A DNA stretch of 33,535 nucleotides from an uncultured Actinomycetes bacterium. Its GTDB lineage: Bacteria > Actinomycetota > Actinomycetes > Nanopelagicales > Nanopelagicaceae. Position 1 is the stretch's first letter; every line of letters begins with the position of its first letter. Where the stretch lies: NCBI GenBank assembly GCA_903933585.1, contig CAIZKO010000116.1:1-33535 (forward strand), given 5' to 3'. The notes beneath the pieces were generated by a model. That model was not told the origin of the DNA and did no database searches. It saw only the letters and a program-made list of their open reading frames with translations. The position numbers were made by a program, and so were the translations under genes. Below are positions 6,011 through 17,352 of this stretch, piece after piece.

Positions 6011-7227
6011 GTGTCTTTGAAATCGTCCGATTCGCTATCCGCGGGCTCTTTACCAATCGGCTCCGTACCTTTCTGACCGTGCTTGGCATCACCATCGGTG
6101 TCGCCTCAGTGATTATCTTGCTGGCAGTCGGTAACGGTTCCAGCAAGGCGATCCAGGCCTCCCTTGACCGCCTTGGCACCAACTCATTGCAGGTTAGATC
6201 AGGTGGAGGTGGATTTGGTCCACGCGCCCGCGCGACCGCCTCTTCGCAGAAACCGCTAACTATTCTGGATGCTGCTGCTCTGATGGATAAGAGCCAAGCC
6301 CCAGATATCTTGCAGGTAGCCCCGATCGCTTCAACAAATGGAACCTGCGTCGTCGGAGCCAGCACAACCACGCCGTCGACATTTTATGGAACATGGCCCG
6401 CTTACTATAAAGCGAGCAATACCTCGATTCAGTCCGGTTCTTATTTCACAAACGATGATGTGACTCAAGGAAGACGAGTCGCTCTCATCGGACAGACAAC
6501 CGCCACCGCGCTCTTTGGCACAGCCAGTCCCATCGGACAGACGATGCGCTGTTCTGGAATCGAATTCACCGTTATCGGTTTGACTACCGTTAAAGGTGCA
6601 TCAGGATTCCAAGATGGCGACAGCTTGGTTTTGATCCCAATCACAACGATGGAAAATTCCATTACAGGGAATCAACCACTGTCTAGCATCATCGTTGAAG
6701 CAACGAGTTCGAAGACGACGGATGCAGCACAAACCGAGCTGACGTCGATCTTGGATGCGCGACATGGAATTTCAGGTCGCAAGACCGCGGATTTCAGCGT
6801 CTTCAATCAGGCCTCACTTCTTACAACGGCATCAACTAGTTCCAAAACATTCACCACGCTCTTGGGAATGGTTGCTGCGATCTCGCTCCTAGTGGGCGGT
6901 ATCGGAATCACCAACATCATGTTGGTCACTGTTATCGAACGAACTCGCGAAATCGGTATCCGCAAGGCTATCGGTGCCCCCAAAGGTGCAATTTTGAGCC
7001 AGTTCCTGATTGAAGCAACGATATTGTCGGTCTTAGGAGGGGCGCTCGGAGTTGTGGCGGGATTTGTAGGAAGCCACTTCACTATCGCCGGCACTAAGCC
7101 CGTAATCGTTCCTGCATCTGTCTTCTTGGCCTTCGGAGTAAGCATCTTGATCGGTGTCTTCTTCGGTGGCTACCCAGCATCACGCGCCGCATCACTACGA
7201 CCAATCGAGGCACTCCGTTATGAATGA
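6007..7227 (+). CDS. ABC transporter permease (MacB_PCD/FtsX family)
   Basis: TNRLRTFLTVLGITIGVASVIILLAVG, TREIGIRKAIGAPKGAILSQFLIEA, PASRAASLRPIEALRYE. Confidence 0.92.
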   Translation: MSVFEIVRFAIRGLFTNRLRTFLTVLGITIGVASVIILLAVGNGSSKAIQASLDRLGTNSLQVRSGGGGFGPRARATASSQKPLTILDAAALMDKSQAPDILQVAPIASTNGTCVVGASTTTPSTFYGTWPAYYKASNTSIQSGSYFTNDDVTQGRRVALIGQTTATALFGTASPIGQTMRCSGIEFTVIGLTTVKGASGFQDGDSLVLIPITTMENSITGNQPLSSIIVEATSSKTTDAAQTELTSILDARHGISGRKTADFSVFNQASLLTTASTSSKTFTTLLGMVAAISLLVGGIGITNIMLVTVIERTREIGIRKAIGAPKGAILSQFLIEATILSVLGGALGVVAGFVGSHFTIAGTKPVIVPASVFLAFGVSILIGVFFGGYPASRAASLRPIEALRYE

Positions 7228-15401: not shown

Positions 15402-15757
15402 TAAACTAGCGCTTGCACACCGTCGGCCATAATCTCTTCAACAAAGGATGCAGAACCCATGATGGAGATTCCTGGCAGTAGGTCATTTTCGGTGATACCA
15501 CGTCGAACTGCGCACTGCGTGCACAGGGTGATTGTTCCGCCAGCAAGAATCGCATCGCGCAATTGATCGAGCGCGGCAGAGTGCGGCAGCGTGAACTCTT
15601 CGCAGCGTCCCGGCAGCGCAAAATATGATGCTTCGCTAGTAAGCCAGAGCGAAACTTCAAATCCGCTCGCCAAAGCCGTTGCAGCTACCGTGAATGCTTG
15701 GGCGGCGCGCTCTGGATCGTCGGTGCCACTCATAGCCTTGACGACCAACTTCTTCAT
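15398..15757 (-). CDS. DsrE family protein
   Basis: MKKLVVKAMSGTDDPERAAQAFTVAATALASGFEVSLWLTSEA, CTQCAVRRGI. Confidence 0.85.
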   Translation of the reverse strand: MKKLVVKAMSGTDDPERAAQAFTVAATALASGFEVSLWLTSEASYFALPGRCEEFTLPHSAALDQLRDAILAGGTITLCTQCAVRRGITENDLLPGISIMGSASFVEEIMADGVQALVY

Positions 15758-15763
15758 AAATCA

Positions 15764-15780
15764 ATCGTAACGGTTACGAT
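15764..15780. promoter_or_regulatory. perfect palindrome carrying divergent -10 elements
   Basis: ATCGTAAC-G-GTTACGAT; TACGAT on each strand lies exactly 6 nt from start codons 15757(-) and 15787(+). Confidence 0.7.
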
Positions 15781-15786
15781 TATCGC

Positions 15787-15903
15787 GTGGTGACTGTCAG
15801 CTCTATAGCGTTAATTGCCGGCTCAGTCGCCTTTGGTCTATTCCTTATTATCTTTGGAGTCCGTGGCGCAGTACGGCTGTGGCGGCAAGAAAGGGCTGAG
15901 TAA
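15787..15903 (+). CDS. 38-aa single-TM small membrane protein
   Basis: GTG...TAA translates as MVTVSSIALIAGSVAFGLFLIIFGVRGAVRLWRQERAE; TACGAT-N6-GTG upstream; TAA abuts ATG of the next gene; below ORF-track size cut-off. Confidence 0.65.
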   Translation: MVTVSSIALIAGSVAFGLFLIIFGVRGAVRLWRQERAE

Positions 15904-16404
15904 ATGGTTTTCACAATTCCCGAGGGCTTGCACGAGGACTTATATCCACTGGCGTGGATGATTGGGACCTGGCGTGGGAAAGGCCACGGCGAATACCCTG
16001 GCATTCCATCTTTTCAATACGCGCAAGAGGTGACCTTCAATCACGACGGTCGCGACTTTCTTAATTACTACTCGCGCACCTGGTTGATCGATGATGATGC
16101 AAATATCATCGAGCCCTTTGAAAACGAAGTGGGATTTTGGCATCCCAAGCCAAAGAAAGTTCTCGAAGTTGTCCTTTCATACAACACCGGACGGGGCGAG
16201 GGCTGGGTCGGACTTTATGATGGTCCGAAGATTCAACTGGCCTTGGACCGCGGGTACGTTTCACCTTCTGGAAAGTCCGTTGAATCTGCCTCGCGCTTAT
16301 ATGGACTTGTTGAAGGACAACTCTTCTTCGCCCACGATGTAGAGATGAATGGCCATGAACTGCAGTCCTATATGTGGTCAACACTCGAACGACAAGCGGA
16401 ATAG
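15904..16404 (+). CDS. nitrobindin-like (FABP/THAP4-type) heme-binding beta-barrel protein
   Basis: LAWMIGTWRGKGHGEYPGI family signature, FLNYYSRTWLID, EVGFWHPKPKKVLEVVLSYNTGRGEGWVG. Confidence 0.88.
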   Translation: MVFTIPEGLHEDLYPLAWMIGTWRGKGHGEYPGIPSFQYAQEVTFNHDGRDFLNYYSRTWLIDDDANIIEPFENEVGFWHPKPKKVLEVVLSYNTGRGEGWVGLYDGPKIQLALDRGYVSPSGKSVESASRLYGLVEGQLFFAHDVEMNGHELQSYMWSTLERQAE

Positions 16405-16407
16405 CCG

Positions 16408-17352
16408 GTGAGTAATTTCACCGGTGCACTACTAGCGGAGTTGGTTCGAGCGGGCATTGTTGAATCAGTTCACAACGGACATCTAGCTCTCCTCAATAGC
16501 GATGGATCGCTCCGTGCAGCCATCGGAGATATCGACGCGACGATGTATCCGCGTTCCTCGATCAAATCTTTTCAAGCAGCCGCGATGGTTCGCCACGGCT
16601 TAAAGTTAAATCCCCGCCAATTGGCGATCGTCTGCGCTAGCCATTCTGGTTCACCGGAGCACCTTGAAGTTGTCGAATCAATTTTGCATAGCGCTGGACT
16701 TACAGTGATGGATCTTCGCAATACTCCAGACGTTCCACTTGGTCGCGCCGAACGTCAGAGTTGGGGTTCAAATCCACCTTCGCAAATTGCTCAGGGTTGC
16801 AGCGGAAAACACGCTGGCATGCTCGCGACCTGTGTGATTAATGGTTGGGAAACTGAGAGCTATTTAGATCCGGAACATCCATTGCAAATTGCAATTCGCC
16901 AAGAGATCCAATTGCTCATAGGTAATTCCGTGATTTCAACGACAATCGATGGCTGCGGCGCTCCGCTCTTCGCAATTACCACAAAGAATTTTGCGCAGGG
17001 TGCACAGAAGATGCGGATTAGTAGCGATCCGGTTTATCAAGAGGTAATCGCTGCCTGCCTCGCACACCCAGAGATGGTTGCCGGAATCGGCCGCTTAACT
17101 ACGACCTTGATGAAGAGCGTGCCCGGCTTGTTTATTAAGGATGGGGCAGAGGCGGTAGAACTCCTCTCGCTCCCCGATGGTCGCGCCTGCGTATTTAAGG
17201 TCAGCGACGGATCGGATCGCGCCTTCCCGACGATCGTAAAAGCAGTACTCGCCGCGTGGGATATCGACGTAACTATCGATCCCGTGCTTGTGCGAGGGGG
17301 ATCTCATATCACAGGAGAAATTCGAGTATCGCACTCTCTCACGCAGTTATAG
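16408..17352 (+). CDS. L-asparaginase II family protein
   Basis: RSSIKSFQAAAMV, CASHSGSPEHLEV, NPPSQIAQGCSGKHAGMLATC, DGCGAPLFAI; GTG start. Confidence 0.9.
   Translation: MSNFTGALLAELVRAGIVESVHNGHLALLNSDGSLRAAIGDIDATMYPRSSIKSFQAAAMVRHGLKLNPRQLAIVCASHSGSPEHLEVVESILHSAGLTVMDLRNTPDVPLGRAERQSWGSNPPSQIAQGCSGKHAGMLATCVINGWETESYLDPEHPLQIAIRQEIQLLIGNSVISTTIDGCGAPLFAITTKNFAQGAQKMRISSDPVYQEVIAACLAHPEMVAGIGRLTTTLMKSVPGLFIKDGAEAVELLSLPDGRACVFKVSDGSDRAFPTIVKAVLAAWDIDVTIDPVLVRGGSHITGEIRVSHSLTQL

Follow-up and report, generated by a model that had tools for sequence, protein, structure and literature searches.

A 29-bp Intergenic Gap Predicted to Hold Two Back-to-Back Leaderless Promoters between Divergent dsrE and Membrane Protein Genes of a Small-Genome Actinobacterium

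Introduction

Bidirectional promoters are defined by divergent transcription start sites (TSSs) lying 7-25 bp apart (Middlemiss et al. 2023, PMC10268837) and cannot be bound by the two opposing polymerases simultaneously (PMC12825309). Bidirectional promoters with symmetric -10 elements have been described by Warman et al. (2021), as cited in PMC12825309. Leaderless genes are marked by a TANNNT hexamer about 12 bp before the start and represent on average 19% of the genes of Actinobacteria (Zheng et al. 2011, PMC3160421). Our literature search found no report of leaderless genes in Nanopelagicales, nor of leaderless bidirectional promoters in mycobacteria.

The locus analyzed here lies in a stretch of 33,535 nucleotides, hereafter called the window, from a small-genome lineage of actinobacteria. 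Among named relatives those nearest to it are MAGs of uncultured actinobacteria, and further relatives carry the label Candidatus Nanopelagicales or Nanopelagicaceae. In hexamer, distance and phylum the window locus resembles the leaderless TANNNT genes of Zheng et al. (2011; PMC3160421), which make up about a fifth of genes, but differs from them in having two such promoters back to back that fill the whole gap between divergent genes. With the promoters of Warman and Middlemiss the window locus has in common the divergent starts and a near-symmetric DNA on which polymerase would fit in one orientation only. Those promoters have TSSs 7-25 bp apart (most often 18) and share their -10, whereas the window locus has separate -10s 5 bp apart, presumed TSSs at 15757 and 15787, that is 30 bp apart and outside the 7-25 bp range, and two transcripts that are both predicted to be leaderless. 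Overlap of the -10s, in the form of a shared TA, is seen in some relatives only, for instance at the dsrE locus of Micromonosporaceae, which in this respect are like the Warman and Middlemiss promoters. By the definition of PMC10268837 the window pair thus appears to be a close relative of a shared -10 bidirectional promoter and not itself one. The results of our analysis indicate that the 29-bp gap is very probably a compact divergent leaderless promoter pair, consisting of two back-to-back predicted promoters.

Layout of the Locus

The intergenic gap (15758-15786) is divided as 6+6+5+6+6 and separates dsrE on the minus strand from the gene of a 38-aa membrane protein on the plus strand (table 1). 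Direct reading shows that ATCGTAACGGTTACGAT, at 15764-15780, is an inverted repeat with 8-bp arms and a single unpaired base, G15772; counting in the flanking A15763/T15781 extends it to 19 bp with 9-bp arms (AATCGTAACGGTTACGATT). The palindrome reported in an earlier, sequence-only reading of this DNA is therefore present as described, with arms one pair longer than was said. That reading also placed TACGAT on each arm's own strand, exactly 6 nt before ATG 15757 (-) and GTG 15787 (+), and this can be read directly: the hexamer runs from 15775 to 15780 on the plus strand and from 15769 to 15764 on the minus strand, in each case followed by 6 nt and then the start codon.

The small hydrophobic protein encoded on the plus strand matches no Pfam or NCBIfam family above cut-off, and its ORF keeps length, sequence and position in relatives, in synteny with dsrE; because of this conservation it is considered a real gene. 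The product of the following gene scores 85 bits against the NCBIfam peroxynitrite isomerase, under the cut-off of 225 for that family, and no link between dsrE and nitrobindin was found in our literature search.

Table 1. Features of the divergent dsrE locus, with positions in the window
Feature	Position	Strand	Evidence and remarks
dsrE-like gene, 119 aa	15398..15757	-	PF02635, E 1.9e-12; orthologs
6-nt spacer, -10 to presumed TSS (A of ATG), dsrE side	15758..15763	-	Length conserved
Inverted repeat AATCGTAACGGTTACGATT	15763..15781	none	9-bp arms flanking G15772; 17-bp palindrome plus one pair
Predicted -10 element TACGAT of dsrE	15764..15769	-	6 nt upstream of ATG 15757; TAnnnT conservation; genome-wide -12 peak
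5-bp centre ACGGT	15770..15774	none	G -14 and T -13 for both promoters (extended -10 context)
Predicted -10 element TACGAT of the small membrane protein gene	15775..15780	+	6 nt upstream of GTG 15787; TAnnnT conservation; -12 peak
6-nt spacer, -10 to presumed TSS (G of GTG), membrane protein side	15781..15786	+	Length fixed, sequence variable
38-aa single-span membrane protein, gene 1 of the plus-strand operon	15787..15903	+	ORF conserved in relatives
Nitrobindin/THAP4-like heme-binding protein	15904..16404	+	PF08768, E 8.8e-42; directly after the membrane protein gene, no gap
L-asparaginase II-like protein	16408..17352	+	PF06089, E 2e-90; probable later gene of the plus-strand operon

Leaderless Signal across the Genome

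The genome of the window (G000) comprises 1.53 Mb in 135 contigs, of which 1.125 Mb was used for genome-wide counts. In this portion 203 candidate start codons have a TAnnnT motif beginning at -12, compared with about 24 at a typical position and 67 at -13. Expressed by gene, 202 of 1,151 carry TAnnnT at -12; these counts are approximate, the genes having been called by a simple longest-ORF script, and the positional peak at -12 is independent of gene calling. The peak lies at the same position in two congeners (G011 and G017), and TACGAT is among the hexamers used at the TAnnnT leaderless starts of the window genome. The 6-nt spacing on each side of the dsrE-locus palindrome thus appears to reflect two copies of the leaderless promoter that is usual in this genome. 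On each side TACGAT stands at -12 in a position conserved in orthologs, as is characteristic of leaderless TANNNT promoters, and the 6-nt spacers are too short to hold a Shine-Dalgarno site. No sigma70-type -35/-10 pair was found in the region, as is expected for TAnnnT promoters.

Conservation of the Divergent Promoters

DsrE relatives were retrieved from 36 of 60 genomes, 20 of the 36 being within the genus (window included). All 18 genus loci with a readable divergent start, the window among them, carry TAnnnT at a distance of 6-7 nt from each start; since start codons were partly chosen for pattern fit, agreement at single loci is inflated, which does not apply to the genome-wide peak or to the reversed-pattern controls presented below. 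The two -10s lie 5 bp apart in 12 of these loci and 7, 18 or 36 bp apart in the remainder, figures that count loci and not events because the sets compared share members and lack phylogenetic independence. Every one of the 12 loci with the compact layout (gap of 29-30 bp, -10s 5 bp apart) retains a TAnnnT 6-7 nt away from each of the two starts. More distant congeners, with gaps of 32, 42 or 60 bp, have both predicted leaderless promoters and no palindrome. A wider set of 65 dsrE loci from named genomes, which overlaps with the 60-genome set and of which 63 were scored, extends this picture: in 60 of the 63 actinobacterial loci TAnnnT lies 6-8 nt from the dsrE start, and in 30 both divergent genes have it, the inter-10 distance ranging from -7 to 18 with one locus excepted. 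In Micromonospora and Dactylosporangium a single TA is common to both -10s of the dsrE locus.

The palindrome behaves differently from the promoters. Its exact 17-bp form is found in five of 32 genus genomes, once per genome and always at the dsrE locus, and perfect symmetry thus appears confined to the subclade of the window. In the four congeners having the 17-bp block intact, fourfold-site identity of dsrE to the window is 0.34-0.56, and all five loci have C as their centre base when read on the dsrE strand. These five, window included, are the only ones among the 12 compact loci to keep the full palindrome; the other seven have lost symmetry by changes that are uncompensated on the other arm and that always leave TAnnnT in place. 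The dsrE arm has become TACCAT in four of them (L009, L013, L014 and L015) and the opposite arm TAGGCT in another (L011), while the hexamers of both arms differ in L012 and the centre is altered in L010, with both TACGAT kept.

The earlier proposal of two back-to-back -10 elements, with both transcripts leaderless, is accordingly upheld by the sequence evidence, including the conserved spacing. The same proposal had made conservation of the palindrome under conserved synteny its touchstone, and here its two parts separate: the palindrome fails in the seven asymmetric compact loci, whereas the promoters endure, TAnnnT being kept throughout.

Origin of the Symmetry and of the Conserved Centre

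Bare palindromes of the 8+1+8 kind are not rare in this genome: a uniform base composition would give 17 in 1.125 Mb, whereas 28 are present, and a second one stands at 6910 of the window itself. Such abundance would suit the view that the palindrome at the dsrE locus is a coincidence devoid of promoter function, the true promoters lying further upstream inside the neighbouring genes. What seems to exceed chance is its placement, namely two TAnnnT motifs located exactly 6 nt from divergent starts and conserved as such. Considering also the genome-wide peak at -12, the conservation at near-saturated divergence and the retention of TAnnnT while the rest of the gap changes, we regard coincidence as very improbable. 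Improbable too, if to a lesser degree, is that the 17-19 bp palindrome constitutes an operator, at which a putative dimeric regulator would cover both -10s and silence both genes together. The perfect symmetry across the 9-bp arms speaks for such a site, as does the centre, which remains conserved (11, 11, 9, 11 and 11 of the 12 compact loci) though the fourfold sites of dsrE are near saturation. An operator should have its symmetry conserved or compensated across orthologs and should recur at further intergenic sites, but neither was found: the seven asymmetric loci include no compensatory pair, and the core of the palindrome, GTAACNGTTAC, has two other sites in the genome, both inside coding-like sequence. 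Moreover, the palindrome is missing from other congeners in which the gene pair is the same, the full palindrome is limited to this locus in each genome, and Pfam profile searches revealed no DNA-binding regulator among the ORFs adjoining the gap. Because one-arm changes are uncompensated with TAnnnT kept, and because the core has no other intergenic site, the symmetry appears to derive from two identical -10s placed back to back and not from a shared operator; the earlier suggestion that a symmetric regulator could act on the palindrome is not supported. A shared-operator reading was consequently rejected, there being neither a regulon nor compensatory changes. A putative regulator binding the centre is conceivable, but it would have its site at the dsrE locus only. 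An RNA hairpin was also discarded, as transcription starting at the start codons would leave the palindrome out of both RNAs.

The 5-bp centre deserves separate consideration. In comparison with the modal counts just given for its positions, those of the five outer positions of the spacer on the membrane protein side are 5-9 of 12 compact loci, and the centre appears conserved beyond neutral expectation, about as strongly as the -10s. Since the centre is conserved like the -10s, whereas that of a second 29-bp locus described below varies, something beyond two bare -10 hexamers seems to be under selection at the dsrE locus. A refinement of the back-to-back promoter reading, for and against which the evidence is in our opinion evenly balanced, is that the centre provides an extended -10 (G-14/T-13), needed as each -35 would lie inside the start of the opposite gene; indeed, the -35 regions fall around the first codons of the opposite genes, and no -35-like hexamer pair was found. 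Consistent with this possibility, all but one of the 12 compact loci (11) have G at -14 on each strand (columns 8 and 10), and in a set of 133 TAnnnT leaderless starts no base is more frequent than G at this position (0.36). However, the genome-wide preference is weak (-17 to -13), L010 has a changed centre with both TACGAT kept, and the second 29-bp locus has no fixed centre.

Polymerase Competition and Its Possible Meaning

According to the back-to-back promoter reading, the TAnnnT -10 on each strand, presumably used with the housekeeping sigma factor, would make transcription begin with the first base of the start codon; both mRNAs are predicted to be leaderless because the position of each -10 places the TSS at that base. 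With a distance of 5 bp between the -10s and of 30 bp between the presumed TSSs, the two promoters would form one shared binding zone, in which a polymerase sitting on either -10 covers the other and only one orientation is occupied at a time. The perfect palindrome would then arise where TACGAT happens to serve as -10 on both strands, preceded in each case by G-14/T-13, and judging from the asymmetric loci it does not appear to be needed for the divergent arrangement. Polymerase competition at the window pair is plausible from this geometry together with the work on E. coli (PMC12825309), the exclusion seen in E. coli being carried over by geometry only because the 30-bp TSS separation lies outside the 7-25 bp range (PMC10268837).

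If so, the locus would offer a minimal natural case of polymerase competition at divergent promoters, measuring 29 bp and having both TSSs predicted to the base. It would also illustrate how leaderless translation may allow a small genome to cut an intergenic region down to two -10 elements plus two spacers, and how promoter symmetry can be separated from regulator symmetry, as at the dsrE locus symmetry decays while the predicted promoters stay. A broader scenario, which we put forward tentatively and consider rather doubtful, is that streamlined actinobacteria maintain, at gene pairs that are conserved, a set of divergent leaderless promoters of compact and near-symmetric form, with one polymerase zone per two genes, and that the centre of the dsrE locus would equalise the two orientations, so that the ratio between dsrE and the nitrobindin operon would be fixed by competition.

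Recurrence of Compact Divergent Pairs

The arrangement had earlier been called unusual, which overstates the case for this lineage, in which compact divergent leaderless pairs recur and a second one has the identical 29-bp layout. Among divergent pairs sampled from the window genome and from G011 and G017, 43 of 278 show TAnnnT on either side at a distance of 6-7 nt, and the smallest gap among them is 17 bp; the pair of the window itself falls outside this sample because the script required 60 aa. Gaps of 17 and 22 bp correspond to TSS separations of 18 and 23, respectively, two of the distances favoured by bidirectional promoters in E. coli (PMC12825309). Across the 32 genus genomes the pattern CAY-N6-AnnnTA-N5-TAnnnT-N6-RTG has 35 matches, as against 3 for its reversed control. 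The corresponding figures are 18 and 1 for an inter-10 distance of 6 bp, 6 and 3 for 4 bp, and about 111 and 62 for the shared-TA pattern, which is less specific. With several spacings in use (35/3, 18/1, 6/3 and about 111/62), a single fixed inter-10 spacing was rejected as a rule of the lineage; on the loci compared, it is individual conserved loci that tend to keep their own spacing.

The second 29-bp locus (L134, G000:C77:6014-6048) carries AGCCTA-GTCGC-TAGGCT between terC (PF03741) and the gene of a HhH-GPD glycosylase (PF00730). It is like the dsrE locus in its 6+6+5+6+6 layout, in having one same hexamer as both -10s and in the presence of its pattern in other genus genomes, about a dozen of which match it with a variable centre on the basis of the sequence pattern alone. 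It is unlike the dsrE locus in its hexamer, TAGGCT, in having GTG starts on both sides and in its centre, which is not conserved.

Other configurations were observed in the window genome. At L129 (G000:C72, around 6161-6178) the divergent starts are 17 bp apart and the -10s overlap (TAGAATA), which would put the TSSs 18 bp apart, the most frequent value in E. coli bidirectional promoters (PMC12825309). The -10s share one TA at L037 (G000:C96) and L098 (G000:C41), which have 22-bp gaps with the sequences AGGATACATT and AGAGTAAACT, and shared-TA divergent leaderless pairs of this type recur in other genus genomes. Finally, the divergent pair at G000:C123:3917-3952 has 6 bp between its -10s and the core TATACAAGTA, which reads TATCCAAGTA in most relatives, and is present in many genomes of the genus.
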